A stretch of 64,000 nucleotides of DNA from Streptomyces marispadix. GTDB taxonomy: Bacteria; Actinomycetota; Actinomycetes; Streptomycetales; Streptomycetaceae. This document shows positions 13,386 to 35,091 of the stretch, one piece after another. The stretch covers positions 6,376,001 through 6,440,000 of the forward strand of contig NZ_JAKWJU010000002.1 of NCBI RefSeq assembly GCF_022524345.1, read 5' to 3'. The notes under the pieces were generated by a model. The model worked only from the letters and a program-made list of their open reading frames with translations. It was not told the origin of the DNA and searched no databases. Position 1 is the stretch's first letter, and each line of letters opens with the position of its first letter. The translations under genes were made by a program, and so were the position numbers.

Positions 13386-13401
13386 TCCGTATGCGGAATA
13401 T
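13386..13401. promoter_or_regulatory. Island operator copy 1 (TCCGTATGCGGAATAT)
   Basis: Matches the island consensus TCCGTATACGGAATAT at 15 of 16 positions. It overlaps the first ATG (13391) of the tannase-family gene, so either the transcript is leaderless or translation starts further in. Confidence 0.7.
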
Positions 13402-15013
13402 ATCCGAGATCCGATCTCTCCTGACCCGTAGCGTCGGTCGGAGCTGTGCTGTCATCTCAGTGACGCTCGCGTTGTCTCTCCTCGTGGTGGCGCCCGTCAG
13501 AGCCGACGGGGAAACGTCGCGAGCTACTGCGGAAGGGGGCGGCATCGCACCCGTGCTGGCGTGCGAGGAGCTGGTGTCCGAGTTCAGCCTTCCCAGCGGC
13601 GACGTGAGCGTCGTCAGCGCGGTCCCTGTTCAGGAAGGCGACCCGGAGGCTCATTGCCTGGTTCGCGGCACGGTCGAGCCCGCCGTCGACTTCGAGCTCA
13701 AGCTCCCGCTGCGCGGCTACCACGGCCGGTACTTGCAGTACGGGTGCGGCGGTTTCTGCGGCGGCGTCGAATCCCCGGTCCTGAAGGGCTGTGCAGCCGA
13801 AGACGGAGGAGCGGCCGTGGCCGCCACCGACGACGGGCACCGGGCGCCATCGCTGGACGGAAGCTGGGCAGCGAACGACCGTGCGGCGCGTGACGACTAC
13901 TTCTACCGCGCCCCGCACGTCGTCGCGCAGGCCGGCAAGCGGCTCATCGAGAGGTTCTACGGCGACCGCCCCCGGCATTCGTACTTCACCGGATGTTCGA
14001 ACGGCGGCCGCGAGGCGCTGATCCTCGCGCAGCGCTATCCGTCGGACTTCGACGGGATCGTCGCGGGCGCTCCGACAAGTCACCTCGGGCCGCTCTCGAT
14101 CTACACCGCCTGGCTGGTCCGCACGAACAGCGGGCCGCACGCGTTGCGCCCCGACCAGATCCCGGCCCTGCATCAGGCCGTGCTGGACGCCTGCGACGGG
14201 CTCGACGGACTGGTCGACGGGTCGTTGGAGGATCCGCGCGACTGCCGGTTCGACCCCGCGGACGCGGGCTTCTCGGCCGGACAGTCCCGCCTGATCCGGA
14301 AGCTGTACCGGGGACCACGCGACGAGCAAGGCCGGCGTCTCTATCCCGGTGGGCAGCCGTACGGATCCGAGTCGAACTGGGTCCCGTGGCTTGCCGCTCC
14401 GCCCGACTTCGGACCCACGGTCGCCGAGCGGCTGGCTGACGGCCTCCTGAAGTACACGATGTACCCGATCGGTTCGCCGGCGTCGTCAGTGGCCGACGTT
14501 CCCTTCACGGCCCGGGAGGTCCGCCGGATCAGCGTCGAGGGCAGGAAGACGCACGCCATGAACCTCGATCTCTCGCGGTTCCGCGCCGCAGGCGGAAAGC
14601 TCATCCTGTGGCACGGCTGGGCGGACCAGGGCATCCCTCCGACGACGACCGTCGACTACTACCGTCGTCTCGGGAGTCCCAAGGCCTGGGCGCGGCTGTT
14701 CATGGTGCCGTCGGTCGGGCATTGCAGCGGAGGCGACACCTTGAACACGTTCGACGCCTACCCGGCAGTCGTGGACTGGGTCGAGCGGGGTGACGCGCCC
14801 CGCGTGGTCATCGCCGAGCGACGGTCCCCGACGGGCGCGGTGGAACGAACCCGGCCGGTGTTCCAGTACCCGTACCGGGCTCGGTACGACGGCACGGGCG
14901 ACGTCGACGATGCAGCGAACTTCCGCCCCGTGAGCCCGGGCGTCGATCACCGGGACCGCATCGACTGGGTGGGGGAGTACCTGCACCGCATCCCGGGGCC
15001 CAGCGTGCCGTAG
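13391..15013 (+). CDS. Secreted tannase/feruloyl esterase-family hydrolase
   Basis: A 540-residue exoenzyme with a long signal peptide (hydrophobic core about 20-36, cleavage near RADG). The tannase-family CS-D-HC motif is complete: Cys202-Ser203 in GCSNGGRE, Asp415 in HGWADQG and His444-Cys445 in VGHCSGG. Family members hydrolyse aromatic esters (tannins, feruloyl or chlorogenate esters, MHET). No Shine-Dalgarno precedes 13391 and an operator copy covers that ATG; an in-frame GTG at 13460 is a less attractive alternative because it shortens the signal peptide. Likely supplies aromatic acid to the importer encoded in the same island. Confidence 0.88.
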   Translation: MRNISEIRSLLTRSVGRSCAVISVTLALSLLVVAPVRADGETSRATAEGGGIAPVLACEELVSEFSLPSGDVSVVSAVPVQEGDPEAHCLVRGTVEPAVDFELKLPLRGYHGRYLQYGCGGFCGGVESPVLKGCAAEDGGAAVAATDDGHRAPSLDGSWAANDRAARDDYFYRAPHVVAQAGKRLIERFYGDRPRHSYFTGCSNGGREALILAQRYPSDFDGIVAGAPTSHLGPLSIYTAWLVRTNSGPHALRPDQIPALHQAVLDACDGLDGLVDGSLEDPRDCRFDPADAGFSAGQSRLIRKLYRGPRDEQGRRLYPGGQPYGSESNWVPWLAAPPDFGPTVAERLADGLLKYTMYPIGSPASSVADVPFTAREVRRISVEGRKTHAMNLDLSRFRAAGGKLILWHGWADQGIPPTTTVDYYRRLGSPKAWARLFMVPSVGHCSGGDTLNTFDAYPAVVDWVERGDAPRVVIAERRSPTGAVERTRPVFQYPYRARYDGTGDVDDAANFRPVSPGVDHRDRIDWVGEYLHRIPGPSVP

Positions 15014-15034
15014 TCCGCAGGACCGCAGCACGCA

Positions 15035-15072
15035 CTTCTGCCTCCGGCCGCGCACGCGGCCGGAGGCAGAAG
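15035..15072. terminator. Strong bidirectional terminator
   Basis: Perfect stem of 17 bp (CTTCTGCCTCCGGCCGC with its complement) around a 4-nt loop, between the ends of the tannase-family gene and the convergent dioxygenase gene. Confidence 0.85.
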
Positions 15073-15125
15073 TCGCTGAGGAGTTCTCGATTCGGTGAGG
15101 AGGTCTTGTTCCGGGCCCGCGTCGG

Positions 15126-15984
15126 TCAGCGCATCGCTGCCGGCATATCGGAGTGCCCCATTGTTCGGGCCGTCCCCGCGGCCACACGCGCGGCACCCAG
15201 GTCGAGTCGTCGACCCGCAGAACCTCGCAGGTGTACTCGACGATGTGCTGGTCGGGGTCGAAGAAGTACGAGAAGAGGTTGTTTCCCGGACCGTGCCGGC
15301 CTGGGCCCCACACCCGCGAGATGCCGGCGTCTCCCAGCACCTTCACCCCGTTCGCCAACGCCGTCCAGTCCTCGACCGTGAAGGCGGTGTGATGCATGGA
15401 CGGTGCCGGGTTCTCGGACCGGATGAGCGCGAGCGAATGATGGTTGGCGTTGCAGCGCATGAAGGCCATGAGGTTCTCGGTCTCGTCGGAGAGACGGAAA
15501 CCGAGGACGTTCTCGTAGAACTCCCTGCTGGCGTCGTAGTCGGGGACCCTGAGCACGACGTGGTCCAGCCCCAGGGGCTTCACATCGCGGGTGCCGTATC
15601 CGTCCGTCCGCACCTCGAGGTCGGTGACCAGCTCGACGAGCACCCCTCCCGGGTCTCGGAACCGCAGTGCCGCTCCGACGCCGGGTTCGAGGTCGCGGGT
15701 GGGCGGTATCTCGACCGGAAGCCCGCGCATGCCGAGTGCGTCCTCGGCTCGTCTGAGATCGTCGGCGCTCTCGACGACGAACGCGATGTGGTCGAGATCC
15801 GGTGCGCCCTCACTGAGCACGACGGCGTGGCTGTCGGGCGAGTTCGCCCGGAAGTACCGCGGCCCTCGTGCTCCTCGGTGAGATCGAGGCCCCACCGGTC
15901 GGCGTAGAACTCGCTGGACCGATCGACGTCGCCGACCCGGAGCCCGACGTGCGCGAGCCGGACGACGTTGACCGAGGTGTTCAC
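15126..15984 (-). CDS. Extradiol (VOC) ring-cleavage dioxygenase, two apparent frameshifts
   Basis: Two-domain catechol 2,3-dioxygenase-like protein of about 285 residues. The N-terminus (VVRLAHVGLRVGDVDRS) starts at a GTG at 15984 in one frame; from about 15860 the homology continues in another frame (GPRYFRANSPDSHAVVL) through the C-terminal domain with Fe(II) ligands His in GLDHVVLRV, His in MHHTAF and Glu in HIVEYT. Near 15145 a second shift is needed to reach the natural end WGTP-DMPAAMR and TGA. Both shifts look like lost or gained single bases. Expected role: meta-cleavage of a catechol made by the dioxygenase/dehydrogenase pair. The start overlaps the ferredoxin stop (GTGA). Confidence 0.8.
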
Positions 15985-16223
15985 GGCAACTCCCGTCGGG
16001 TGGTGGACGCTGCGCTCTCATCCGTCGCGGCGGCCACGATGGCAAGGGCCGCAGCGGGGCATTCGGCGACAGCGTGCTCGACCTTCGGGCGGTCGCCGTC
16101 GGCGATCTCGTGCTGGAGCACCTTGACCGAGCCGTCGCTGCCGATGTCGAAGTACGCCGGGGCGGCGAACACGCAGTTTCCGTACCCGTCGCACGCCTCG
16201 ACGCTGGCAGAAATGAAGCTCAT
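15981..16223 (-). CDS. Small [3Fe-4S]/[4Fe-4S]-type ferredoxin
   Basis: An 80-residue ferredoxin with cluster ligands in ACDGYGNC and the distal CPAAAL, the three-cysteine pattern of [3Fe-4S] ferredoxins. In PAH-type dioxygenases of actinomycetes a ferredoxin of this class, not a Rieske ferredoxin, delivers electrons to the oxygenase. It is the only ferredoxin in the island and is therefore the likely partner of one or both ring-hydroxylating dioxygenases and of the reductase at 28340-29527. Translationally coupled to the dioxygenase gene; an operator copy lies 24 bp upstream. Confidence 0.85.
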   Translation of the reverse strand: MSFISASVEACDGYGNCVFAAPAYFDIGSDGSVKVLQHEIADGDRPKVEHAVAECPAAALAIVAAATDESAASTTRRELP

Positions 16224-16246
16224 GGCTGACTCCCTCGCGACTGATG

Positions 16247-16260
16247 CGTATACGGAATAT
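16247..16260. promoter_or_regulatory. Island operator copy 2 (CGTATACGGAATAT)
   Basis: Identical to the last 14 positions of the consensus; 24 bp upstream of the ferredoxin start on the minus strand. Confidence 0.7.
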
Positions 16261-16452
16261 TGCAATCAGAGCCCTGCGGCGGGCGCCTGTCAAGCCTGCG
16301 GGGCGGCCCCAGGCCCGGTGCGGTGGATCGCCGTCGGTGCTCCGACGAGGCGGCGCCATCGGCAGTGACCTCGCAGGAACGCGCCGCTCGGCCCGAATCG
16401 GCGAATGAGGGGCCTTGGCCCCGCTGGCCCCGCTACCGGGTCAGGCGAATCG

Positions 16453-16482
16453 TTGACACTGGGATTTGGCTGTGCCTAGGAT
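16453..16482 (+). promoter_or_regulatory. Sigma70-type promoter of the dioxygenase operon
   Basis: TTGACA at 16453-16458 and TAGGAT at 16477-16482, separated by 18 nt. Predicted start near 16489, just ahead of operator copy 3, so a bound regulator would block initiation or early elongation. Confidence 0.6.
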
Positions 16483-16500
16483 CACAACGAGAAGAAATGA

Positions 16501-16514
16501 CGTATACGGACTAT
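16501..16514. promoter_or_regulatory. Island operator copy 3 (CGTATACGGACTAT)
   Basis: Differs from copy 2 at one position. Lies between the predicted transcription start and the GTG of the first aldehyde dehydrogenase gene. Confidence 0.7.
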
Positions 16515-16533
16515 CCATTCCTGGGAGGCTCCT

Positions 16534-18096
16534 GTGACGCGATCAACGGCGGATCCGGCGCACGCGTCCCTGAAGCCTGCCGGTGGCGGTCTTTCGGCCA
16601 ACGAGGCTCGGGCACGCGAGCTGCTGAACCGCGACTGGCGCCTGCTGGTCGGGGGAGAACTCCGCTGCGCCCAGAGCGGGGCCGCCTTCCCGGTGACCAG
16701 TCCGTACACCGAGGAACGGATCGCGCTGGTGCCGGACGGAGGGCAGGCCGACGCAGACGCAGCGGTGGCCTGTGCGAAGGAGGCGTTCACGGCCTGGTCG
16801 GCGCGGACGGCGGCCGACCGCGCCGACCTGGTCCTGCGCCTCGCCGATGCCGTGGAGCGCCGGGCCGGCGATCTGGCCCTGCTCGACGCCGTCGACGGCG
16901 GTGCGCCGATCGCCGTGATGGCTGACGATGTGGCGTTCGCCGTCCAGACGCTGCGGTACTTCGCGGGGCTCGCCCTCGAACTGAAGGGCACCACAACGCC
17001 GGCCAGTGAAAATCTCCACTTCACGGAGCGCCAGCCGTACGGCGTGGTGGCGAAGATCATCCCCTTCAACCACCCAGCGCTCTTCGCGATCAGTAAGGTC
17101 GCCGCGCCTCTCGTGGCCGGCAACAGCGTCGTGCTCAAACCGGCAGAGGCGACTCCGCTGTCGGCACTCCTGTTCGGCGAGATCTGCCGCGGCGTCCTCC
17201 CGGCAGGCCTCGTCAACGTGGTCGTCGGCGACGGCCCACTCGTGCCGGACGCTCTCGTACGGCACCGGGACGTGCACCGCATCGGGTTCACCGGAAGCGA
17301 GGCCACCGGGCGAGCGATCCAGCGGGCGGCAGCGGAGGTGGCGGTCAAGCAGGTCACGCTTGAGCTGGGCGGCAAGAACGCCCTGATCGCGTTCCCGGAC
17401 GCCGACCCGGAAGAGGTCGCCGAGGGTGCTGTCCGGGGCATGAACTTCACATGGTCGGGCCAGTCCTGCGGATCCACTTCACGTCTGCTCGTGCACTCCG
17501 CCATCGCTGACGACGTGCTCCGGCGGATCGCGGAGCTCCTCGCTGACCGCGTGTACGAGTCGCCACTGTCGCCCACCGCGGTCCAGGGCACCATCGTGAA
17601 CCGCTCGCAGTACCGACGGATCTTGGACTTCATAGAAGCGGCCGTCGCGGAAGGCGCCGAGATCGCCGCCGGCGGCGGACCCCCCGGTGGCGACGTGCCG
17701 GGCCTGTTCATCGAGCCGACGGTGCTCGACCAGGTCCGGCGGGATCACCGGGTGGCGAATGAAGAGGTCTTCGGTCCGGTGCTGTCGGTGATCCGCTGGA
17801 CCGACGAGCAGGAGGCCATCGAGATCGCCAACGGCGTCCGGTACGGGCTGACGGGCAGCGTGTACACGAACGACATCCGCCGGGCTCACCGCGTGACGCG
17901 GGCACTCGAGACCGGCTACGTGTGGATCAACGGGTCGGGTCGGCACTTCATGGGGGTGCCCTTCGGCGGGTGGAAGAACTCGGGCACGGGCCATGAGGAA
18001 GCGCTGGAGGAGCTGTTGAGCTACTCGCGGCTCAAGTCCGTGAACGTGATGCTGCACGCCACCGGCACCGATACGGAGAGGGCGAAGAACTCATGA
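16534..18096 (+). CDS. Aldehyde dehydrogenase
   Basis: A 520-residue NAD(P)-dependent aldehyde dehydrogenase; Rossmann site FTGSEATG, general-base Glu in LELGGKN and catalytic Cys in SGQSCGS. GTG start with GGGAGG seven bases ahead. It oxidises an aldehyde to the acid; in this context most plausibly the aromatic aldehyde released by the hydratase-aldolase of the island, as salicylaldehyde dehydrogenases do in naphthalene pathways. First gene of a nine-gene operon; its stop overlaps the dioxygenase alpha start (ATGA). Confidence 0.92.
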   Translation: MTRSTADPAHASLKPAGGGLSANEARARELLNRDWRLLVGGELRCAQSGAAFPVTSPYTEERIALVPDGGQADADAAVACAKEAFTAWSARTAADRADLVLRLADAVERRAGDLALLDAVDGGAPIAVMADDVAFAVQTLRYFAGLALELKGTTTPASENLHFTERQPYGVVAKIIPFNHPALFAISKVAAPLVAGNSVVLKPAEATPLSALLFGEICRGVLPAGLVNVVVGDGPLVPDALVRHRDVHRIGFTGSEATGRAIQRAAAEVAVKQVTLELGGKNALIAFPDADPEEVAEGAVRGMNFTWSGQSCGSTSRLLVHSAIADDVLRRIAELLADRVYESPLSPTAVQGTIVNRSQYRRILDFIEAAVAEGAEIAAGGGPPGGDVPGLFIEPTVLDQVRRDHRVANEEVFGPVLSVIRWTDEQEAIEIANGVRYGLTGSVYTNDIRRAHRVTRALETGYVWINGSGRHFMGVPFGGWKNSGTGHEEALEELLSYSRLKSVNVMLHATGTDTERAKNS

Positions 18097-19436
18097 GCAC
18101 ACCGATCTCTCCGCGTGCCTTGGAACTGCTCGAGGACATGCGCGACAACTTCGAGCAGGGCCTGGTCCCGCTCTCCGTCTACAACGACCCCGAGCTGAGC
18201 GAAGTCGAGCTCGACCGCGTGTTCAACCGCAACTGGGTGTTCCTCGCCCACGAGTCCGAGATCCCCGAGCCTGGCGACTACGTCCTGCGGACGATCGGTG
18301 AGGATCCGTGGATCGTCGTGCGTGACGAGAGCGGCACGATCCGGGTCCTGCTCGACAGCTGCCGCCACCGGGGCGCCCAAGTATGCCGAGCGGACAAGGG
18401 CAACGCGTCCCACTTCCGCTGCCCCTACCACGGATGGACATACAAGAACTCCGGCGACCTCGCCGGTGTGCCTCACCGCGTCGAGTCCTACCGAGAGCTC
18501 GATCTCAAGCAGTGGGGCCTCGTCAGGGCTCCTCATGTCGACACTCACCGCGGGCTGGTCTTCGCCTGCCTGGCCGCTGACGCTCCGGAGCTGAGCGACT
18601 ACCTCGGCGGCATCGCCTGGTACCTGGACGTACACCTGGCACTGACCGAGTTCGAGGTGCTGGGTGACCCTCACCGCTGGGTGGTGGGAGCCAACTGGAA
18701 GATCGGTGCGGAGAACTTCGCCGGCGACAGCTATCACACGGAGTCGGTCCATCGCTCGGTCGTCGAGGTGAGCCTGTTCCCCAGCATCCTCCTCAAACAC
18801 GGGGTCGCGGCACAGGGGAAGCGGCACATCAGCGGGCTGGGCGGCCACGCCGCGAACCTCAATCACGACGTGGGCGCCCCGGAGGAAGCACAGTTCTGGG
18901 GCTACCCCTCCGAAGTCACCGAGCAGTTCGACGCCGAGGGGATGGACCCCGACCAGTACGAGCTCGCCAAGTGGAGCAAGCTCAGCACCGGCACCGTCTT
19001 CCCCAACCTCTCCTACCTCTGCTCCGCCTTCGTGGACGCGCCCGGCAGGCCGGCGGGCACCGTGCTGATGCTGCGGCAGTGGCAACCGCGCGGCCCCGCG
19101 GCCATGGAGCTGTGGAGCTGGATCCTGGTTCCGAAGGGCGCGAGCGACGAGTACAAGGAACGCGTCGCACGGGTCGCCACGGCGTCGTTCAGTCCCTCCG
19201 GGAACTTCGAGGAGGACGACACGGCGATCTGGTCGACGATCGCCCGCACTGCCGGAAGCCGCTACGCGCGCAGCAGGAACCTGAAGCTGAACTACCAGAT
19301 GGGGATGCCGGGCATGGCGGAGATCGAGCGGGACGAGAACTGGCGTGGCCCCGGGGTGGCCCTGATGTCGGACCTGGAGGACGGCGGGCAGCGCACCGTA
19401 CAGCGGCGCTGGATCGAGGAGATGCTCCGCCCATGA
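18093..19436 (+). CDS. Ring-hydroxylating dioxygenase alpha subunit (PAH-like)
   Basis: A 447-residue Rieske non-haem iron oxygenase. Rieske cluster ligands: CRH near residue 91 and CPYH near residue 111. The mononuclear iron site is NFAGDSYHTESVH (Asp bridge plus two His), with the third carboxylate in the FEEDD stretch near residue 370. The GDSYHTESVH spelling is that of the naphthalene/PAH and biphenyl groups. With the beta subunit it adds both atoms of O2 to an aromatic ring to give a cis-dihydrodiol. It needs electrons from a reductase and a ferredoxin, which are encoded elsewhere in the island. Confidence 0.93.
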   Translation: MSTPISPRALELLEDMRDNFEQGLVPLSVYNDPELSEVELDRVFNRNWVFLAHESEIPEPGDYVLRTIGEDPWIVVRDESGTIRVLLDSCRHRGAQVCRADKGNASHFRCPYHGWTYKNSGDLAGVPHRVESYRELDLKQWGLVRAPHVDTHRGLVFACLAADAPELSDYLGGIAWYLDVHLALTEFEVLGDPHRWVVGANWKIGAENFAGDSYHTESVHRSVVEVSLFPSILLKHGVAAQGKRHISGLGGHAANLNHDVGAPEEAQFWGYPSEVTEQFDAEGMDPDQYELAKWSKLSTGTVFPNLSYLCSAFVDAPGRPAGTVLMLRQWQPRGPAAMELWSWILVPKGASDEYKERVARVATASFSPSGNFEEDDTAIWSTIARTAGSRYARSRNLKLNYQMGMPGMAEIERDENWRGPGVALMSDLEDGGQRTVQRRWIEEMLRP

Positions 19437-19484
19437 CCTGCGCAGACGCCGCCGTACGCTCGCCGAGGCAGGAAGGAGCGGGCT

Positions 19485-20000
19485 GTGAATGACGTGCCCC
19501 TCCAGTGGGAGGCCCGTCAGCACGCGATGGACTTCCTCCATCTCGAGGCTGACCTTCTCGACCGTCGTCGGCTCCCCGAGTGGCTGGAGCTGCTTCACGC
19601 GGACCTCGACTACCGAATCCCCGTGCGCACGACTCGTGAGCGTTCCGCGACGACGACATTCAGCGCTGCGGCCTTCCACATGATCGAGGACCGCTCCACG
19701 TGTCAGGCGAGGGTCGACAGATTCGCCTCCGAGTTCGCCTGGGCGGAAGACCCGCCGTCGCGTACGCGCCGGTTCGTCTCCAACGTCCAGGCCCTCTACG
19801 CCGACGACGCCCGCGACACCATCGACGTGCGGAGCAACCTGCTCGTCTTCCGCGCACGCGGCGAAGACGCGGCGATCCACCTGAGCGGCGAGCGACAGGA
19901 CGTGCTCAGCCGCGGCCCGCAGGGCTGGCAGCTTCGTAGCCGCACGGTCCTGCTCGACCACACGTCGCTGCCCACCTTGAACCTCGCGATCTTTCTCTGA
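19485..20000 (+). CDS. Ring-hydroxylating dioxygenase beta subunit
   Basis: A 171-residue small subunit with the cone fold of the family (LEADLLDRRRLPEWLELLHADLDYRIPV, split here as LLDRRRLPEWLELL and DLDYRIPV; ending LPTLNLAIFL). It has no cofactor and stabilises the alpha3beta3 hexamer. GTG start after GGAAGGAG, 48 nt from the alpha stop. Its stop overlaps the start of the next small gene (TGATG). Confidence 0.92.
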   Translation: MNDVPLQWEARQHAMDFLHLEADLLDRRRLPEWLELLHADLDYRIPVRTTRERSATTTFSAAAFHMIEDRSTCQARVDRFASEFAWAEDPPSRTRRFVSNVQALYADDARDTIDVRSNLLVFRARGEDAAIHLSGERQDVLSRGPQGWQLRSRTVLLDHTSLPTLNLAIFL

Positions 20001-20281
20001 TGAACCCGGACGAGAGCGAAGACGAGCGTCACGAGGGCGAGCGTCACGAGGGCGAGCAGGACATCGTCATCGCCAACGAGTTCGCCTACGTCGTCGTCCG
20101 AAAGGTCTCCACCCGGAACGGCGACCGTCTGGAGATCGTCTCGCCGCGTCTGCACTACTCGATCCGGCTCGACGCCCTGATCCTCGAAAGCCTGACCTGG
20201 CAGCGGCCGGATGCGCTTTCCACATTCCTGGAGGACCCCCACGGTCCCACCGAAGGCCACCACACCACCGAAGGAACCTGA
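20000..20281 (+). CDS. Small dioxygenase-associated protein of unknown function (copy A)
   Basis: A 93-residue protein of no family I can name. The acidic N-terminus holds a two-unit tandem repeat (ERHEG, from a 15-bp DNA repeat at about 20023-20052). Residues 31-72 align without gaps to the 60-residue protein at 31450-31632 that follows the other beta subunit: shared EFA, V, NG-RL-I, I-LD-L and ES-T positions, about 16 identities over 41. Two paralogues at the same place in two divergent dioxygenase operons indicate a dedicated accessory, perhaps for assembly or electron transfer. Coupled to the beta stop (TGATG). Confidence 0.75.
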   Translation: MNPDESEDERHEGERHEGEQDIVIANEFAYVVVRKVSTRNGDRLEIVSPRLHYSIRLDALILESLTWQRPDALSTFLEDPHGPTEGHHTTEGT

Positions 20282-20286
20282 TCGAC

Positions 20287-21057: not shown

Positions 21058-21117
21058 CCGCCCCCCAACTCCTCACGTTCACCCCCACCTTCGTCTCGCA
21101 AGGAAGGTCATCGCCGC

Positions 21118-22593: not shown

Positions 22594-22624
22594 GCGCCGT
22601 GGCCGCGGGCGAGGAGAACGCCCC

Positions 22625-26099: not shown

Positions 26100-26114
26100 C
26101 AGAAGGGAAGAACC

Positions 26115-27266: not shown

Positions 27267-27279
27267 ACCAAGGAGCGCC

Positions 27280-27311
27280 CTGTCCGGCCGGCCGTCGAGC
27301 CGGCCGGACAG
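27280..27311. terminator. Terminator of the nine-gene operon
   Basis: Perfect 13-bp stem (CTGTCCGGCCGGC and complement) with a 6-nt loop, between the convergent binding-protein and hydratase-aldolase genes. Confidence 0.85.
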
Positions 27312-27365
27312 CGCGTGAGAGACCCGGCCACTGGTCCTGTCCGCCCCGGACTTCGTGTCAGACGC

Positions 27366-28343
27366 TCAGCCGAATTGGTCGACGAGGGTGCGCCACCGGC
27401 GCGCCGACTCCAAGGCCACCGCTGCGATCTCGTCGGGCACGTGCGAGTACGGCGGACGGATGGGGCCGCTGCGGCAGTAGCCGGCGGCGTTGATCCGGGT
27501 CCGCTCTAGCTGCACGTTGTAGGACGCGAACAGCTCGTCTTCCTTCGCCAGTTCGATGAACGGCTCCGCTGCCCACAGGATTCGCGAGCTGACCTCGTCG
27601 AGCGAGGCTTCGTCGCCCGCCGCCAACGCGTCGCGCAGCGCCAGGCACGGTTGCGGCCCCATGGCCGCGGCGGTCGCCCAGAACGCGGTCGTCTCCTCCG
27701 CGCCGATGGCACGGAACTGCGTGACGACCATGTCGCTCGGCAGGAAGTTGACCCGGTGCCGGGTCACGCGCCGGTTCTCGGACAGGGCGCCTGGGCGGGA
27801 GCACTTGGCCGCCACGACCGTCGGAGCCGAGGCCGCCACGCCCTGCCAGAAGCCGGTGGCGTCGGCGAACGGGAAGCGGAACGCGCGTTGGTTCGCGTAG
27901 ACCATGACCGCCAGGTCAGGGAAGTAGTGGGAGACCTGCGCGAAGTAGTCGACGGCGGCGCGCTCGGTCAGCGGTTGCCACATGGGCAGTCCCAACAGGG
28001 TGCCGTCGACGCCGGCGCGACGCAGGACGTCCATACGGGCATATGTGTCGTAGGCGCCGGTGGTCGTGGCACCGACGAAGAGGGGGACGCGGCCGTCGAC
28101 CGTTTCGGCGAGGCACCGCACCAGGGACTCGTACTCGCCCGCGGGCAGGGTGGGGCACTCACCGGTCGTGCCCAGGGCGATCACGCCGTCGACTCCGTCC
28201 GCCAGCAGGGCCTCCACCGTCCGCGAGGTCTCGGCGAGATCCACCGTGGCGTCCGCGTCCCAGCGGTGTGCTTCCGGGAGGGCAGGGGTGGGGATGATCG
28301 CGAGCAGGCCCGTGAGGTCGCCGGCCGATACGGCGGGCGTCAT
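27366..28343 (-). CDS. DapA-fold hydratase-aldolase (aromatic pathway type)
   Basis: A 325-residue class I aldolase-fold protein. The N-terminal IIPTPALPEAHRWDADATVDL pattern (short form PTPALPEAHRWDAD), GTTGECPTL and GLPMWQPL match the trans-o-hydroxybenzylidenepyruvate/trans-2'-carboxybenzalpyruvate hydratase-aldolases better than dihydrodipicolinate synthase; the Schiff-base Lys is in VAAKCS. These enzymes hydrate and cleave the extradiol product to pyruvate and an aromatic aldehyde. The ATG overlaps the reductase stop (ATGA). Fits between the extradiol dioxygenase and the aldehyde dehydrogenases. Confidence 0.82.
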   Translation of the reverse strand: MTPAVSAGDLTGLLAIIPTPALPEAHRWDADATVDLAETSRTVEALLADGVDGVIALGTTGECPTLPAGEYESLVRCLAETVDGRVPLFVGATTTGAYDTYARMDVLRRAGVDGTLLGLPMWQPLTERAAVDYFAQVSHYFPDLAVMVYANQRAFRFPFADATGFWQGVAASAPTVVAAKCSRPGALSENRRVTRHRVNFLPSDMVVTQFRAIGAEETTAFWATAAAMGPQPCLALRDALAAGDEASLDEVSSRILWAAEPFIELAKEDELFASYNVQLERTRINAAGYCRSGPIRPPYSHVPDEIAAVALESARRWRTLVDQFG

Positions 28344-29527
28344 GCGCCGATCGTCTCGTGCTCGGCGACAAGCTGCCGTCGGCGGGCGATGAACTCCCGG
28401 TTCATGCCCATGCCGACCACGCCGGTCAGCCGCCCGTCCGTCAGGTGCCGGGTGACGAACCTGGGGGAGGCGGGATTCCCTTCCCAACGACGCTCGGCCG
28501 AGTCGCTGAGCTCGCCGGCCGTCTGGAATCGGAGGCCGTACTGGTCGGACCAGACGTAGGGAACCGGGACGTAGGGGAGGGCGCCGTCGGGACCGTTCAA
28601 CAGGTTGGCGGCGGCGCGGCGGGCCTGCTCGGTGGCGTTGGTCCAGTGCTCATGACGGATAAGGCGGCCGGATCGCGTGTCGTACCAGCGCGCGACGTCG
28701 CCGGCGGCGACCACGCGCGGAGCCGCGAAGCACCCGCTGTCGCACACCACGCCGTCGTCCAGACGAAGTCCCGACCCCGCCAGCCACTCGACGGCAGGCG
28801 TGGCGCCGATCCCCACCACGACCGCGTCTGCGACGAGTGTGGAACCGTCCGTGAGGTGCACCGACTCGACCCGGCCGGAACCGCGGACCCCGCTGACTCC
28901 CACCCCCAGCCGGAACTCCACGCCGTGTTCGCGGTGCAGGGCCTGCATCGTCTCCCCGGCCCGGCGGTCGGCGACCCGGGCGAGCAGCCGGTCGGCCGCT
29001 TCGACGACTGTGACGTGGACGCCCAAGGACCGCGCCGCAGCAGCTACCTCGAGCCCGATGAAGCCGCCACCGATGATGACCAGTCGCCCGCCGTCGCGCC
29101 GGAGGAGGGACCGCCGCAGGTCGGCTGCGTCATCGAGGGTCCGGAGCACGGTGACGCCGGCGAGCGCCTCGACCGGCAGCGTCCGCGCAGTGGCCCCCGT
29201 CGCGACGACGAGGCCGTCGAATGCGACTTCGCCGCCGTCGGCGAGGTCCAGCCGCCCCGCCTGGAGATCGGCGCCCGCGGCAGCCGTACCCAGGCGCAGG
29301 TCGACTCCGAGATCGTCATAGTGACTTCGGGGACGCAGCGGAAGGCGGTCGGCGGACCAGTCGCCCGTGAGGTACTGCTTGGAGAGCGGTGGCCGGTCGT
29401 AGGGAAGATGGCGCTCCGCGCCGACCAGGACGATGTCTCCGTCGAAGCCCTCCGCACGCAACGACTCTGTGGCGCGCACGCCGGCGAGCGAGGCTCCGAC
29501 GACGACGACACGACGTATGGCTTCCAC
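28340..29527 (-). CDS. FAD-dependent ferredoxin reductase
   Basis: A 395-residue reductase of the dioxygenase/P450 type: GASLAGVRATESLR for FAD, YDRPPLSKQYL, GGGFIGLEVAA for NAD(P)H and the second FAD motif VVAAGDVARW. It passes electrons from NAD(P)H to the island's ferredoxin. It is the only such reductase in the window, so both dioxygenases probably depend on it. Operator copy 4 lies about 60 bp upstream, shared with the divergent class II aldolase gene. Confidence 0.93.
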   Translation of the reverse strand: MEAIRRVVVVGASLAGVRATESLRAEGFDGDIVLVGAERHLPYDRPPLSKQYLTGDWSADRLPLRPRSHYDDLGVDLRLGTAAAGADLQAGRLDLADGGEVAFDGLVVATGATARTLPVEALAGVTVLRTLDDAADLRRSLLRRDGGRLVIIGGGFIGLEVAAAARSLGVHVTVVEAADRLLARVADRRAGETMQALHREHGVEFRLGVGVSGVRGSGRVESVHLTDGSTLVADAVVVGIGATPAVEWLAGSGLRLDDGVVCDSGCFAAPRVVAAGDVARWYDTRSGRLIRHEHWTNATEQARRAAANLLNGPDGALPYVPVPYVWSDQYGLRFQTAGELSDSAERRWEGNPASPRFVTRHLTDGRLTGVVGMGMNREFIARRRQLVAEHETIGA

Positions 29528-29582
29528 GACGTCCCTTCACGGCACTTGACCTGACCTGAGCTGACTGCGACTCTACCCGGAA

Positions 29583-29599
29583 ATCCTCCGTATGCATAC
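29583..29599. promoter_or_regulatory. Island operator copy 4 (ATCCTCCGTATGCATAC)
   Basis: Variant of the island motif in the TCCTCCGTATACGTT form, between the divergent reductase and class II aldolase genes; probably serves both. Confidence 0.6.
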
Positions 29600-29619
29600 T
29601 AATTTGCAAAGGCGTCGCG

Positions 29620-30312
29620 ATGACTGACGAGGTCGACCAGCTCGTGGAGGGCTATCACGCACTCGGTAACGCCGGTCACGGCGACCTGGTGTGGGGACAC
29701 GTCGCGTTGCGAGACGCCTCCACCGGCGGTTTCTGGATGAAGGCCGCCGGATGGGGCTTCGACGAGGTCACCCGAGATCGCCTGGTCCTGTTGTCGAGCG
29801 ACGGATCGATGCTGGCCGGAACAGGGCCACGCCACGTCGAGTGGCCGATCCATGCGGAGATCCTCCGGGTACGTCCCGAGGTGTCGGCCGTGGTCCACAC
29901 GCACGCCGGCGCGGCCGTCGTATTCGCCTCCCTCGCGACGCCGCTCAGGGCGATCTCCCACGATGGCGTCCCCTTCGCGGCGCCGGACGTGCCGCGCTTC
30001 ACCGAGACGGCAGACCTGATCCGCAGCGCCGAGCTCGGAGCGGCGCTCGCCGCGACCCTCGGGGATGCGAACGGGGTGCTCATCCCCGGGCACGGGCTGG
30101 TGACGGCTGCGGCGACGCTCGCGGAGGCGGCCATGTACGCCGTGCTCCTGGACCGGGCGTGCGCGCATCAGCTTCGGGCGCTCCAGGCGGGCGGCCCCCG
30201 GCTGTGGAGCGATGCCTCGGAGGTGGCGGCGAAACAATCGATGTGGACACCGGCGAGCCTCGCGTCGGGCTTCGACTATCTGGTGCGACGCGCACACGAG
30301 AGCCGCCGGTGA
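29620..30312 (+). CDS. Class II aldolase/adducin-family protein
   Basis: A 230-residue protein with the metal-binding HTHAG motif near residue 90 and GHGLV near residue 152, plus HAEI. Class II aldolase-fold enzymes in aromatic clusters include aldolases and the decarboxylases of p-cumate/phthalate-type meta-cleavage products (CmtD-like); which applies here cannot be settled from sequence. Sole plus-strand gene in this part, with operator copy 4 at 30 bp upstream. Convergent with the second dioxygenase operon. Confidence 0.8.
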   Translation: MTDEVDQLVEGYHALGNAGHGDLVWGHVALRDASTGGFWMKAAGWGFDEVTRDRLVLLSSDGSMLAGTGPRHVEWPIHAEILRVRPEVSAVVHTHAGAAVVFASLATPLRAISHDGVPFAAPDVPRFTETADLIRSAELGAALAATLGDANGVLIPGHGLVTAAATLAEAAMYAVLLDRACAHQLRALQAGGPRLWSDASEVAAKQSMWTPASLASGFDYLVRRAHESRR

Positions 30313-30331
30313 GTGCTGCCGATCGCCCTCG

Positions 30332-30643
30332 CTAGGGGTCGGCCGGGTCCGGGATCTCCATCACGACACCGGCGCGCTCGGCGAGGTAGGGTGTCACCGC
30401 CGTACGGATCGTCTCCCAGTGGCGCTCGTCCTCGCGGAAGGCCAGGTAGTCGTCGACCGTGGCGAAGTCCGCCGTGTAGCCGAAGTCGTAGTTGTCCGGG
30501 CGGACGCGCAGATCCTCGCCCACGCACATGTCCTCGATCTGTGAGAACTCCGCGCGTAGGGCCAGCAGCGCCGCTGCCATCTTGGGTACGGCGTCCGCCG
30601 GAGCGTCCGGCGACAGCCGCACCAGCACGATCTGGCGGATCAC
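30332..30643 (-). CDS. Dabb (stress-responsive alpha/beta barrel) protein
   Basis: A 103-residue dimeric alpha/beta barrel-type protein (IRQIVLVRLSPDAP at the start, DFGYTADFATVDDY in the middle). Dabb proteins range from structural to catalytic (for example cyclases and small oxygenases). GTG start overlaps the SDR stop (GTGA). Last gene of the second dioxygenase operon; role unknown, possibly handling an unstable intermediate. Confidence 0.8.
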   Translation of the reverse strand: MIRQIVLVRLSPDAPADAVPKMAAALLALRAEFSQIEDMCVGEDLRVRPDNYDFGYTADFATVDDYLAFREDERHWETIRTAVTPYLAERAGVVMEIPDPADP

Positions 30644-31422
30644 GGGGCCGAGCCGCCGGGAGGCCGGATCCCGTAACCGAGCACCCCGCCGTTGACCGCC
30701 AAGGTCTCACCCGTCACGAACGAGGCCTGGTCCGACAGCAGGAACGCCACCGCGGCCACGGCCTCCTCCGCCCGGGCGAGGCGTCCGAGGGGGATGTGGT
30801 CGATGATCGCCTGCCGCTCGGGGTCCCGGACCGCGGAACCCTTGTCTCCGGGTTCGCGCTCGATGGCCGTGGGCGACATGGCGTTGACCGTGACCCCGTG
30901 AGGAGCGAGTTCGACGGCCATGGTGCGCGTCAGGTGCACGACGCCTGCCTTCGCTGCGTGGTAATGCGGGCCCTGCCATGGCACGTAGCCGAAGGCCGCC
31001 TGCGACGCGATGTTGACGATGCGTCCGAACCGCCGCTCGACCATGTGGGGAGCCGCGGCGCGCGAGCACAGGAAGGTCGTGGTGAGTGTCAGCCGGAGGA
31101 TGCGTTCCCACTCTTCGGGATCGGTCTCCCAGAAGGGCCCGACGTGGCGCACGTACGAGGCCACGTTGTTGACGAGCCAGTCGATGCGGCCTTCCCGGGC
31201 GACGACGTGTCCGACGAGTTCGTCGACCGACGCGGCCGACGATACGTCGCCGGTGAGTGCGCTCGCCTCACCGCCCGCCTCCTCGATCTCGGAGACGGTG
31301 CGCGCGGCCAGGTCGCCGTCGATGTCGTTGACGAACACCCGGGCGCCGCCGTCCGCCAGGGAGCGGGCGATGCTCGCACCCAGCCCGCGCCCGGCGCCGG
31401 TCACCACGGCGACCTTCCGCAC
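30640..31422 (-). CDS. SDR dehydrogenase (second operon)
   Basis: A 260-residue classical SDR: TGAGRGLG, NNVA, ISA-type serine region IASQAA and active-site YHAAK. By position after a ring-hydroxylating dioxygenase it should oxidise the cis-diol (or cis-diol carboxylate, with loss of CO2 when the substrate is a benzoate) to a catechol. Sequence is well diverged from the SDR at 20287, in line with a different substrate for the second dioxygenase. Confidence 0.88.
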   Translation of the reverse strand: MRKVAVVTGAGRGLGASIARSLADGGARVFVNDIDGDLAARTVSEIEEAGGEASALTGDVSSAASVDELVGHVVAREGRIDWLVNNVASYVRHVGPFWETDPEEWERILRLTLTTTFLCSRAAAPHMVERRFGRIVNIASQAAFGYVPWQGPHYHAAKAGVVHLTRTMAVELAPHGVTVNAMSPTAIEREPGDKGSAVRDPERQAIIDHIPLGRLARAEEAVAAVAFLLSDQASFVTGETLAVNGGVLGYGIRPPGGSAP

Positions 31423-31449
31423 GAAATCACCTTCCTCACTGGCCGGCAG

Positions 31450-31632
31450 TCAGTCGACGGGGGGCGGGACGAAGTCCTGAAACACGTCGCCCATCCGCGT
31501 AATGCTCTCGACCTCGAGTGGGTCCAGCAGGATCTCCCGGCCGCTGTTGAGATCGCGGATCAGCAATCGTGGGCCGTTCGCCGACCGGTCGATCAGCAGT
31601 TCAACGCACGCGAACTCGCTCCGCAGGTGCAC
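31450..31632 (-). CDS. Small dioxygenase-associated protein of unknown function (copy B)
   Basis: A 60-residue protein following the beta subunit gene by 13 bases. Residues 6-46 align gap-free with the 93-residue protein of the first operon (EFA, NG-RL-I, I-LD-L, ES-T). It lacks the acidic N-terminal extension of copy A. No cysteine pair or histidine pattern for metal binding is shared, so an electron carrier is unlikely; a structural or assembly role is inferred. Confidence 0.72.
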   Translation of the reverse strand: MHLRSEFACVELLIDRSANGPRLLIRDLNSGREILLDPLEVESITRMGDVFQDFVPPPVD

Positions 31633-31645
31633 GGCTGCCCCTTGC

Positions 31646-32137
31646 CTAGATGATGATCGAGACGTTGAACAGAGGCAGCACGCTGTTCTGCAACAACGCC
31701 GTACGGGCCGCGACCTTCCAACCGTCGGGGGCGGGGCTCAAGCGGTGGCGGTACTGGCCGACGAAGGACCGCTCCTGACCCTTGCGGATCTCGTGGACAA
31801 GGAAGTTCGAGGTCACGAGTACGTCGTCCTCGGCCCCGGCGACACGGACGTTGGAGATCAGCCGACGGGTGGTCGAGCGGGGGATCTGAGCGTGAGCGGG
31901 CCCGGTGACGAGCCTCCAGACCCGCTCCTCCAGCCGTACGCGGTCGTCGTTGATCAACGCTGCCCGGACAGGGGCGGGCGAGTCGTCGATGCCGTCCGGG
32001 ACGTGATAGGTGGCGTCGTCGGTGAACAGGTCGAGCCAGTCGTGCAATCGCCACTGATCCAGCAGCTCGGCCTCGTGGTACAGCCAGTCCTCGGCGTCGC
32101 CGCGGCTGAAGGTGCTGGGGGATTCCGGCATGCTCAT
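31646..32137 (-). CDS. Ring-hydroxylating dioxygenase beta subunit (second)
   Basis: A 163-residue small subunit (WLYHEAELLDQWRLHDWLDL, central DDRVRLEERVWRL, end VLPLFNVSIII). The start MSMPES at 32137 overlaps the alpha stop (ATGA), which also fits family length. No cofactor expected. Confidence 0.92.
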   Translation of the reverse strand: MSMPESPSTFSRGDAEDWLYHEAELLDQWRLHDWLDLFTDDATYHVPDGIDDSPAPVRAALINDDRVRLEERVWRLVTGPAHAQIPRSTTRRLISNVRVAGAEDDVLVTSNFLVHEIRKGQERSFVGQYRHRLSPAPDGWKVAARTALLQNSVLPLFNVSIII

Positions 32138-33378
32138 GCCCCGCCCCCTTGGTCGCTTCCCACCAGGCGGGCGTACTCGGCGTACATGCCTCGTTGATGG
32201 ATCTCGTCCGTCGGCGAACCACGGCGGACGCCGTCGCCGAGGTCTTGGCAGTCGTGCGCGCCCCGGTTGAGCAGCAGCCACGGTGTCGACATGGCTTGCA
32301 GCCCCTCGGTCACCGCCGAGAACACCTCGTAGTCGTCGGGCGTGCCGAATCCCGTCGGCGGATAGAACCCCTCGTGCTCGGCCATCCGTTTCCGGTTCAG
32401 CGCCTCTGGAGCGTCCGTGAGCAAGTAGGGGTACATCATCACCTCGGTCTCGTCGACCGAGACCGGCTGGACCACCCGGATCTGGTGGCCGATGAGGAAG
32501 AGGTTCGGAAAGACGAACACGTTCATGTGCGCGAGGATCTCCAGGAGGCGCTCGGAGCCGTGCTTCGCCTCGAGCGCACTCGTGTACTCGGGGAACTGCT
32601 CTCGAAGCACGTCGATGGCCCGCGGGTCCGCGCGCCGGGCGAGCACCGCATGACCGCGTGGGAACGTCTCGGTCCAGCCCTGGTCTTCGCCGTGGGACCC
32701 GAACTTCAGCTCCACCTCCTCGGCCCGGGACATGATGCCGATGTAGGTCTCGTGGACGAACGCGGTGTGGTAGCCGTCGACGCCGTTCTCCATCTGGAGC
32801 TTCCAGTTACCCGGGTACCGGTGCCTGCTGACACCGGCCGACAAATCGATCTCGCCGGAGAGTGAGAAGTCGAGCGTGGCATCGACGTAGTCGCGCACCG
32901 GCCCCAGGTATTCGACGAGAGGCTCGATGCCGTCGTCGAAGCAGGCGAAGACCAGTCCTCGATAGCTCTCCACCCGCGGAACGTTCACGAGGCCCAGTCC
33001 GCCGAGGTCGAAGTCCCTGGGGTAGCGGCTTCGCTTCGGAACTCCCATGAGGTCGCCGTTGTTGCGGTACGTCCAGGCGTGGTACGGGCACCTGAAGAAC
33101 TTGCCGTTCCCCTTCTCTTCGCGGCAGACGAGGGAGCCCCGGTGCAGGCACCGGTTGACGAGCACGCGCACGGCCTCGTCCTCGCCGCGCACCAGGATGA
33201 CCGGTTCGCTGCCGATCTTCGCCCGCTTGTAGTCGCCTACGTTGCGCACCTCGGACTCGTGCCCGACGTATACCCAGGCACGTCGAAAGAGGGTGCGCAT
33301 CTCTTCGTCGTAGATCGCTGGGTCGGTGTAGAGACGTCGGTGCACCCGGTCGGGGAGCAACAGCTCATCTAGGTTCAC
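32134..33378 (-). CDS. Ring-hydroxylating dioxygenase alpha subunit (benzoate group-like)
   Basis: A 414-residue oxygenase subunit. Rieske ligands CLHRG and CPYHAW; iron site ENGVDGYHTAFVH. The NWKLQMENGVDGYH spelling resembles the benzoate/toluate/anthranilate group, unlike the PAH-like subunit at 18093. The GTG at 33378 (VNLDELLLP) is chosen since GGAGG precedes it; an in-frame start upstream adds a Cys-containing segment without homology. Heads a five-gene minus-strand operon (alpha, beta, small protein, SDR, Dabb). Confidence 0.9.
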   Translation of the reverse strand: MNLDELLLPDRVHRRLYTDPAIYDEEMRTLFRRAWVYVGHESEVRNVGDYKRAKIGSEPVILVRGEDEAVRVLVNRCLHRGSLVCREEKGNGKFFRCPYHAWTYRNNGDLMGVPKRSRYPRDFDLGGLGLVNVPRVESYRGLVFACFDDGIEPLVEYLGPVRDYVDATLDFSLSGEIDLSAGVSRHRYPGNWKLQMENGVDGYHTAFVHETYIGIMSRAEEVELKFGSHGEDQGWTETFPRGHAVLARRADPRAIDVLREQFPEYTSALEAKHGSERLLEILAHMNVFVFPNLFLIGHQIRVVQPVSVDETEVMMYPYLLTDAPEALNRKRMAEHEGFYPPTGFGTPDDYEVFSAVTEGLQAMSTPWLLLNRGAHDCQDLGDGVRRGSPTDEIHQRGMYAEYARLVGSDQGGGA

Positions 33379-33502
33379 AGCACCTCCGGGGCATTCGTCG
33401 AGACCCGGGCAGACACCCGCTCGCATGGCGGGCCCCGGCAGAGCACGTGCGTCGGTGAGCTCGCCGATGTGAACACCGTAGTCGCGCCACCGAGCAAACT
33501 CG

Positions 33503-33519
33503 AACGTATACGGAGGAAC
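33503..33519. promoter_or_regulatory. Island operator copy 5
   Basis: Reads TTCCTCCGTATACGTTC on the minus strand, the same extended form as copies 4 and 6. Lies in the divergent gap between the second dioxygenase operon and the MarR gene. Confidence 0.65.
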
Positions 33520-33582
33520 CTAGAGTCAGGGAAGAGCCCGTGTCAATGGCAGCATGCGGCCGCCGCTGCCGCGCGAGTTAGT

Positions 33583-33614
33583 ATCCGTACGTACGCAGAG
33601 GACGTACGCAGAGG
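33583..33614. promoter_or_regulatory. Variant operator with direct repeat at MarR promoter
   Basis: TATCCGTACGTACG resembles the island motif with ACGT in the centre, and CGTACGCAGAGGA is repeated twice in tandem up to 33615. About 40-65 bp upstream of the MarR start; a plausible autoregulatory site. Confidence 0.45.
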
Positions 33615-33649
33615 AACCGGGATCGGCCGATCGTGATGAGGAGTCGGGG

Positions 33650-34579
33650 ATGGGGAAGTCCGGCCGCGGGGCAGAAGTGACGTCCGTGCGGACGGGCGCC
33701 GAAATGCTCGCCCTCGACGAGGCTCCGGGTCATCTGGTGAGAAGAGCGCAACAGCGTCACGCGGTCCTCTGGGCGCACGAGTTCGGCCAGGACCTGGACA
33801 TCACGGGGCCTCAGTACGCGTTGCTGTGCGCCGTTGCGGCCGCCGACGGTCTCGACCAGGGCACCGCGGGGGAGCGCGCCTCGCTCGACAAGTCGAGCAC
33901 GGCCGACGTCGTGGCCCGGCTCGTGGGCAACGGCTGGCTACGGGTCTCACCGGACGTGCACGATCGGCGCCGTAAGGCCTTGTCGATCACCCCGCTGGCC
34001 CGCACCGCCCTCGAAGTCGTCACTCCCCGCGTCGCCGAGGTGCAGACGCGGCTCATGCGCAACATCCCTGTCGGCGACCGGCCCGCCTTCCTGGACGCGC
34101 TGCGCGTCGTGGCCTACGCGGGCCAGGTGCCGGAGGCCGACGCGGGAGCCGGACCGTTCCATTCGCTTCGCGATACACCGGGACACCTGCTGCGCAGGGC
34201 GCAACAAGTGCACACCGTGCTGTGGGGGGAGGAGGTCGGTCCGGTGCCCACCGCGCCGCAGTACGCCGTTCTCAGCGGGTTGTGGTCGCATCCGGCCGGA
34301 ATAGATCAGGGCACCGCGGGCGAGTTGGCGTCCCTGGACAAGTCGAGCATCGCCGACATCGCGCGACGTCTGGTCAACCGCGGCTGGGTCAGCCGGGAGC
34401 GAGACGACGCCGACAGCCGGCGCTGGGTTCTCCGGCTCACGAATCCGCTCCGAGAGGACTTCACCAAGTACACCCCCGCGGTTCGCCGCGTCCAGCAGCG
34501 CATGTTGGCGCCCCTGGAAGGCGCGCAGCAGAAGCAGGCGTTCATCGAGGGTTGCCGCGCCCTGGGATACGCCGACTGA
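33650..34579 (+). CDS. Double-domain (single-chain) MarR regulator
   Basis: A 309-residue protein made of two MarR winged-helix repeats, residues about 25-158 and 176-309. The repeats share APGHLVRRAQQ/TPGHLLRRAQQ, QYALL/QYAVL, DQGTAGE-ASLDKSS and the recognition-helix region ADVVARLVGNGW/ADIARRLVNRGW. MarR proteins normally work as homodimers, so this looks like a covalent pseudo-dimer. Start at 33650 has GAGGAG seven bases ahead. It is the only regulator in the island and the best candidate for binding the TCCGTATACGGA operators. Confidence 0.88.
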   Translation: MGKSGRGAEVTSVRTGAEMLALDEAPGHLVRRAQQRHAVLWAHEFGQDLDITGPQYALLCAVAAADGLDQGTAGERASLDKSSTADVVARLVGNGWLRVSPDVHDRRRKALSITPLARTALEVVTPRVAEVQTRLMRNIPVGDRPAFLDALRVVAYAGQVPEADAGAGPFHSLRDTPGHLLRRAQQVHTVLWGEEVGPVPTAPQYAVLSGLWSHPAGIDQGTAGELASLDKSSIADIARRLVNRGWVSRERDDADSRRWVLRLTNPLREDFTKYTPAVRRVQQRMLAPLEGAQQKQAFIEGCRALGYAD

Positions 34580-34959
34580 GCCTCAAGTCACCGATTCCTC
34601 AAGGGACGTGTCCCCAAGGGACGTGTCGCGTCTGTGGGTGGGGGGCATTGAGCGCTGGCCGTCGGTTGCGGCGACCGCAAGGGCGAGCAGCCGAGGAGCA
34701 GCCGAAGCATCACGGCATCGAGTTGGCGGGCGTGGCCGACAGCCGGTCGACCCGGCAGGTAGCGCGTTGACGTCCTCGATGCGGCCCCCGCCCGCCGACG
34801 GCGAGCGGATCAGAGTGAGGCACTTGTGATCCGGGGGCCAGGGGCAGTGCGGCGCACGCAGCAACGGCCCGAGCCTCCCTGGCTCGGCGTGACCGGACCA
34901 GCGGCCTGCCCGGCGTCGGATACGGCGCTGTCGTCACCGCCCATCACCAACCACCCGTA

Positions 34960-34975
34960 ATCCTCCGCATACGTT
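34960..34975. promoter_or_regulatory. Island operator copy 6 (ATCCTCCGCATACGTT)
   Basis: Extended form of the island motif with one central change (GCATAC), about 120 bp upstream of the gentisate dioxygenase start. Confidence 0.6.
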
Positions 34976-35061
34976 GTGATCCTCGACGCGCCCCGCCAAG
35001 GAAGCGATGCGCGGTGATAGTTGACCGATTCAAGACCGAGAACCTACGATCAACGAAATGG

Positions 35062-35077
35062 TCCGTATACAGAATAT
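35062..35077. promoter_or_regulatory. Island operator copy 7 (TCCGTATACAGAATAT)
   Basis: Matches the consensus at 15 of 16 positions and ends 14 bp before the gentisate dioxygenase ATG, overlapping the expected transcription start. Confidence 0.7.
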
Positions 35078-35091
35078 CGAGGTGATCGTGG

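Follow-up and report, generated by a model that had tools for sequence, protein, structure and literature searches.

We analysed a stretch of 64,000 nucleotides from Streptomyces marispadix (contig NZ_JAKWJU010000002.1, positions 6,376,001 to 6,440,000; hereafter the window) for a palindromic element that recurs at the promoters of a 21.7-kb island of aromatic-catabolism genes. It is very probable that the seven clear copies of this element are the operators of the island's own regulator, a protein carrying two MarR lobes in one chain (hereafter tandem MarR), which from its sequence would be a PcaV-type single-chain repressor of gentisate catabolism. Its regulon appears here to have been extended to a naphthalene-type upper pathway, an uptake system and a secreted esterase. 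A first-pass annotation of the window had reported seven copies, and all of them are present in the letters. The sites, with the promoter boxes beside them, and the regulator gene are as follows.

13380-13403, operator 1, esterase gene; spans the -10 box, the predicted start and the ATG; TTGACG 13356-13361, 17 bp, TAGATA 13379-13384
16239-16262, operator 2, ferredoxin/extradiol unit (minus strand); TTGACA 16293-16288, 17 bp, TCTGAT 16270-16265, minus strand
16493-16516, operator 3, upper-pathway and uptake operon; TTGACA 16453-16458, 18 bp, TAGGAT 16477-16482
29581-29604, operator 4, between the divergent reductase and class II aldolase genes; TTGACC 29546-29551 (plus strand), -10 box not clear
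33497-33520, operator 5, second Rieske operon (minus strand); TTGACA 33546-33541, 17 or 18 bp, CTAGGT or TAGGTT, minus strand
33582-33605, weak variant site upstream of the regulator gene; 12.0 bits, adjoins a repeat of GTACGCAGAGGA
33650-34579, plus strand, tandem MarR regulator gene; 309 aa, two PcaV-like lobes
34958-34981, operator 6, 98 bp upstream of operator 7; own promoter not recognised
35056-35079, operator 7, gentisate operon; TTGACC 35021-35026, 18 bp, TACGAT 35045-35050

When the sites were extended and those of relatives added, the true unit proved to be a 24-bp palindrome, approximately AATTAGTMCGTATACGKACTAATT, whose core reads GTATAC or GTGTAC and whose arms read TAGT/ACTA; the motif first reported, TCCGTATACGGAATAT, represents its centre and one arm. 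The two sub-forms distinguished in the first-pass annotation, one continuing into AATAT and one starting TCCTCC, are imperfect arms of this one palindrome; both occur in relatives as variants of it, and a division into two operator classes was rejected. A refined matrix gave 19-31 bits for the seven sites as against 12.0 bits for the 33582 variant, scores which hold by construction in the window as the matrix includes the window sites, while the comparative tests that used a matrix relied on matrices built from window sites only. The variant that had been placed before the regulator gene was thus found, but as a weak site; a short direct repeat of GTACGCAGAGGA (33590-33616), just upstream of the regulator gene, overlaps it. 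Confinement of the copies to promoter gaps, which had also been claimed, did not hold in full: the 13386 copy contains the esterase ATG (13391), that at 34958 has no recognisable promoter, and near-matches occur within genes. One of these, at 37706 in the FAH gene, has one mismatch to the 12-mer, and an operator-like site of 15.3 bits (16695-16718) falls within the gene for the first aldehyde dehydrogenase, some 200 bp downstream of operator 3. The window holds six occurrences of GTATAC itself, and four of these belong to the operator sites, which corrects an earlier remark on its rarity.

The strict pattern CGTATRCRGANKA had eight matches in the 6,695,159-base genome, six of them in the island (binomial P 3e-14, assuming that matches could fall anywhere in the genome), and its reversed control had one. 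Site 29581 was missed by this pattern because its core is GCATAC. The two matches outside the island comprised one in a long coding-like frame and one without clear assignment. At up to two mismatches CGTATACGGAATAT returned six rows, five of them in the island and covering four sites, and the 24-bp matrix at a threshold of at least 17 bits found seven places in the window compared with a mean of 0.02 for 60 windows resampled with a Markov model. A loose search (12-mer, up to three mismatches) hardly discriminated, with 33 matches against 17.8 expected. The genome-wide scan had been named beforehand as a possible refutation of the regulon; the motif was instead concentrated in the island.

A TTGAC -35 box precedes the operator at transcription-start distance in six of the seven window sites. 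When the sites of the relatives were included, TTGAC began 38-52 bp ahead of the operator centre in 39 of 107 gene-facing orientations, compared with 5 of 57 non-facing orientations and 63 of 3384 background upstream segments, and 42 of 82 unique sites had such a box in at least one orientation. As the operator follows or overlaps the -10 box it covers the transcription start, and this geometry, read from the letters, fits a repressor acting by blockage. At operator 1 the esterase ATG lies at the seventh base after the -10 box and within the operator, which predicts a leaderless message; that an ATG is required at this place would explain the GTATGC core of the esterase copy. Transcription is predicted to start near 13391 (the leaderless case), 16489 and 35057 on the plus strand and near 16258 and 33511 on the minus strand. 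The position of the element at promoters and its AT-rich core could also be expected of a part of the promoter, either a start-site or a -10 element, and of no operator at all. We consider this extremely improbable, in that ordinary TTGAC boxes, mostly with a TAnnnT-like box, lie upstream of the element in six of the seven window sites, the element is palindromic and at 34958 is found without a promoter, and its strong matches (at most one mismatch) are confined to genomes with tandem MarR, with 20 places in 36 such genomes as against 3 in 40 genomes lacking it.

Among the 30 island reading frames scanned with Pfam, tandem MarR was the only regulator, and the MarR and MarR_2 families each matched two stretches of the 309-aa protein. 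Its lobes, 44% identical to each other, belong to one chain, and the AlphaFold single-chain model (pLDDT 89, pTM 0.86) suggests that this chain is a fixed pseudodimer. Palindromic operators near the regulator's own and the target promoters, as expected of the MarR family, were found, that at the regulator's own promoter in the window being weak. Since the recognition helices of the two MarR lobes are nearly the same, a symmetric operator is to be expected. An excess of asymmetric sites, with one ACG and one CCG half, was also sought, giving 36 such sites among 82 unique ones, where 29.3 were expected (p 0.05), and, after thinning, 20 of 42 against 16.0 (p 0.11); an excess was not established, and the notion of asymmetric operators read by two differing lobes was rejected.

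The closest solved proteins to tandem MarR, in both sequence and fold, are PcaV and then HosA. The excerpted text of PMC6882365 lists 13 ligand contacts of PcaV, tying R15 to the mechanism of repression and the upper contacts to hydroxyl groups. With positions mapped by hand onto this list, eight of the 13 contacts are identical in both lobes of tandem MarR and five are changed, and R15 is kept in both lobes in all 20 of the 20 aligned sequences. Given this pocket pattern, with R15 kept and five of 13 contacts changed, a hydroxybenzoate other than protocatechuate is a fair guess as the effector, any choice of a particular acid being inference. The core ATACTCAGTGCCCTGACTAT of the PcaV probe, taken from the same excerpt, matched the sites at 13382 (14/20), 35058 (13/20), 29583 (12/20), 16495 (11/20) and 16241 (10/20), the last of these being within chance against mirrored shuffles.

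To follow the operator in other genomes, relative loci were chosen for carrying tandem MarR, some genomes giving two. The regulator is uncommon, being found in 2 of 394 genomes of the class and 4 of 219 near relatives (own genome included in both), in 7 of 341 genomes of one family and in 19 of 390 from the family to which L015, Pseudonocardia thermophila, belongs. An order-level search for its relatives led to the same family as the set of 341 and added nothing, and a search for plasmid-borne relatives gave no match at E 1e-30. A gentisate dioxygenase gene is present in 26 of the 42 loci, commonly followed by 3-hydroxybenzoate 6-hydroxylase-like and FAH genes, some of these runs being cut off by short loci. 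A 17-bp window matrix, applied to 19 loci from other genomes, placed a site of at least 15 bits no more than 350 bp from the regulator in 8 of them, compared with a mean of 0.06 (maximum 2) for 300 permuted matrices and 0.35 (maximum 2) for positions elsewhere in the same loci. A 24-bp window matrix, at a threshold of at least 12 bits within 300 bp upstream, found sites before 18 of 26 gentisate dioxygenase genes and 21 of 39 tandem-MarR genes, as against 38 of 577 other genes, part of which head operons in the same clusters according to the locus maps. In all, 25 of 42 loci, all from other genomes, had a site upstream of a tandem-MarR or gentisate dioxygenase gene, while 200 permuted matrices gave a mean of 0.3 and a maximum of 7. 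Before the gentisate dioxygenase gene, sites occur in pairs with a spacing of 77-98 bp in the window (34958/35056) and in L017 (10886/10965), L018 (10905/10995) and L021 (11614/11691); in each pair the upstream copy is the weaker and no divergent gene faces it, and it is possible that this copy is a second operator or a looping site.

As a whole-genome control, TASTMCGTRTACGKASTA was searched at up to two mismatches, with places merged over strands and counted by hand from the tables. The first 21 genomes with tandem MarR had 23 places near it (in the window, in the island) and 10 elsewhere, and 16 further genomes had 22 near and 8 elsewhere, giving 45 unique places near tandem MarR and 18 elsewhere in the 37 genomes searched; one of these, G566, repeats G703 (3 places), leaving 36 distinct genomes. 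At the same threshold, 40 genomes without tandem MarR, a non-random set formed by the head of the no-match lists, had 26 places. With at most one mismatch, 17 of the 20 places in the 36 distinct genomes lay near tandem MarR, while the 3 in the 40 genomes without it were all one sequence in one genus. A distant match in G701, on another contig (L117), adjoins a class II aldolase gene a few kb from gentisate genes, as a trans-acting regulon would have it. The sequence TACTCCGTGTACGTCCTA is common to L137, L139 and L140 (G400, G402 and G403), of one genus and without tandem MarR, with a second similar site 33 bp on in two of them; it is perhaps the operator of a related regulator.

The sites might nevertheless be read by another protein, such as a GntR regulator or a single-lobe MarR (for example L035 and L036, the two closer relatives of the lobes in this genome), sharing the regulon with tandem MarR. 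Some GntR proteins are likewise known for GTATAC cores, and with the tandem profile two of the genome's single-lobe MarR genes reach 124 and 111 bits. The single-lobe, PcaV-like L035 gene, however, adjoins what reads from sequence as a protocatechuate 3,4-dioxygenase-like gene and has a different palindrome before it, and across genomes the operator tracks tandem MarR, so that a shared regulon of this kind appears very unlikely. Even less credence is given to an IclR-type regulator encoded elsewhere in the genome and resembling GenR of Corynebacterium glutamicum. In the excerpted text of PMC8222616, the GenR motif ATTCC-N7(5)-GGAAT and that of the IclR group, GTNCG-N5-6-CGNAC, do resemble the palindrome, and there are 19 IclR-domain matches in the genome. 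Their spacing is off, though, the family consensus here being GTNCG-N4-CGNAC with N4 between the CG steps; no IclR gene occurs in the window, the nearest lying about 113 kb from the island, and BLAST with seven IclR proteins as queries found an IclR-like gene in only 5 of the 42 relative loci.

Several observations weigh against assigning the sites to tandem MarR. All of the tests draw on sequence. Because the loci were selected for the regulator, its presence in them is so by construction, and the operator alone was tested. With the 24-bp window matrix, 17 of 42 loci had no site upstream of either gene, and none was found there in two of three same-genus relatives (L118, L119 and L121; L120 has sites). 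G1195 had four matches to TASTMCGTRTACGKASTA, none of them near its tandem gene, and G1115 had none at all. Within the window, the sites at 33499 and 34960 matched the excerpted PcaV probe in 9 of 20 positions, no better than shuffles; the weak 33582 site does little to support autoregulation in this genome; no promoter was recognised beside 34958, and no clear -10 box was found at 29581.

Genes placed behind the sites are listed below.

13391-15013, plus strand, tannase/feruloyl-esterase family gene (Pfam Tannase); N-terminal signal peptide, ATG within the operator
15981-16223, minus strand, ferredoxin gene, with an extradiol dioxygenase-like frame at 14486-16045 (Pfam; NCBIfam HpaD-like, below cut-off)
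16534-27266, plus strand, nine-gene operon: aldehyde dehydrogenase, Rieske alpha and beta (naphthalene-dioxygenase type), 93-aa protein, short-chain dehydrogenase/reductase (SDR), second aldehyde dehydrogenase, fused Liv-type permease-permease-ATPase, ATPase, binding protein
27366-29527, minus strand, hydratase-aldolase (NahE/PhdJ type) and ferredoxin reductase genes (Pfam)
29620-30312, plus strand, class II aldolase/decarboxylase-like gene
30332-33426, minus strand, second Rieske alpha and beta, 60-aa frame, SDR and Dabb-domain protein; alpha start 33426 or 33378
35092-38252, plus strand, gentisate dioxygenase-like, 3-hydroxybenzoate 6-monooxygenase-like and FAH-family genes (Pfam; NCBIfam below curated cut-offs)

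The esterase N-terminus, MRNISEIRSLLTRSVGRSCAVISVTLALSLLVVAPVRADG, reads by eye from the translation as a signal peptide, and the closest solved chains to this protein are MHETase and feruloyl esterases. For the first Rieske protein the nearest match is naphthalene dioxygenase 2b1x, for the DHDPS-family enzyme solved hydratase-aldolases, PhdJ among them, and for the second Rieske protein several Rieske oxygenases, with salicylate 5-hydroxylase further down. The last operon looks like one for gentisate cleavage, and the simplest reading of the set is that a bicyclic or ester-linked aromatic compound would be funnelled to gentisate. The proposal that an extracellular esterase, uptake and ring attack are tied together was supported, with sites heading the signal-peptide esterase, the importer of the ATP-binding cassette (ABC) type, both Rieske dioxygenases and the gentisate module; one operator and one regulon were likewise supported, with a size by position of about 24 genes in place of about 20.

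Some irregularities of these genes were also noted. In the extradiol frame the family-profile match starts at position 39 (residue 64), the first part being absent, and well beyond the domain the frame is still open, beneath the esterase gene; we suspect that the frame is broken. The importer of branched-chain amino acid type includes a 912-aa protein (22625-25363) in which permease stretches are fused to an ATP-binding domain. The 3-hydroxybenzoate 6-monooxygenase-like protein (36162-37357, plus strand) has 351 aa as against mostly about 385-423 aa in relatives, and a small frame (37184-37357) overlaps the end of its gene, possibly reflecting a break in the frame or a sequencing error. Further on, CCCGCATCCGGA recurs at 39750, 39849, 39948 and 39972, three of these being 99 bp apart, in the manner of a tandem repeat (39750-39983).

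Taken as a mechanism, tandem MarR would be a fusion of two PcaV-like subunits, one chain probably folding into a covalent pseudodimer, in which two recognition helices, almost identical to each other, would read the two halves of the 24-bp palindrome. We infer that it binds and represses in this form, as a pseudodimer in solution. The effector-free protein would cover the starts of the esterase, ferredoxin, upper-pathway/uptake, reductase/aldolase, second Rieske and gentisate promoters and so block RNA polymerase. An aromatic acid of the hydroxybenzoate kind, such as gentisate, 3-hydroxybenzoate or salicylate, may then occupy the PcaV-like pockets and release the repressor, so that ester cleavage outside the cell, import, ring attack and gentisate cleavage would be induced jointly.

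A MarR repressor with palindromic operators is of a kind already known. We further think it reasonably likely, with less assurance than the assignment of the sites, that tandem PcaV-type repressors form an undescribed actinobacterial class which, with its own 24-bp palindrome, serves as a gentisate switch, and which here has captured a naphthalene-type pathway, an importer and an esterase (leaderless, with its start codon in the operator). In the open-access literature, neither a tandem MarR nor a MarR gentisate repressor was found among the matches listed, and the motif letters returned nothing relevant among the matches listed. For several actinobacterial groups the analysis offers a testable regulator of gentisate catabolism together with its operator. 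It also suggests what proteins named only MarR or nicotinate regulator in databases are likely to do, and gives an account of how about 24 genes in seven units, together with the regulator, are tied together. If correct, it would provide a natural single-chain aromatic-acid sensor with a defined operator, useful for biosensors, and would allow one to ask what changes when a repressor dimer is fused into one chain.

Compared with known systems, GenR of C. glutamicum (an IclR protein) likewise governs gentisate and 3-hydroxybenzoate genes; it belongs, however, to an unrelated protein family, is described as triggering expression and has another operator spacing, according to excerpts of PMC13118786 and PMC8222616. 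SarS of Staphylococcus aureus (PDB 1p4x) is, in the excerpted text of PMC10715151, likewise a single chain with two MarR-like winged-helix halves. It ranked 11 in Foldseek, with 13% identity and an rmsd of 9.0 over 263 columns, and has a different role, with no aromatic-acid regulon. HosA and BpsR (PDB 8aga and 6pcp), the next solved MarR relatives, have structures with 4-hydroxybenzoate and 6-hydroxynicotinate, judging from their titles, and unlike tandem MarR carry one lobe per chain. The closest solved relative, PcaV, the MarR repressor of protocatechuate genes in Streptomyces coelicolor (PDB 4fht, 4g9y), has a hydroxybenzoate pocket of which eight of 13 contacts recur in both lobes of tandem MarR, and its operator, known here from the probe in the PMC6882365 excerpt, is a palindrome of like design with the centre CAGTGCCCTG in place of CCGTATACGG. 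PcaV, however, forms a homodimer of chains with one lobe each, whereas tandem MarR has both lobes in one chain, and while PcaV regulates protocatechuate genes, tandem MarR is linked to those of gentisate.

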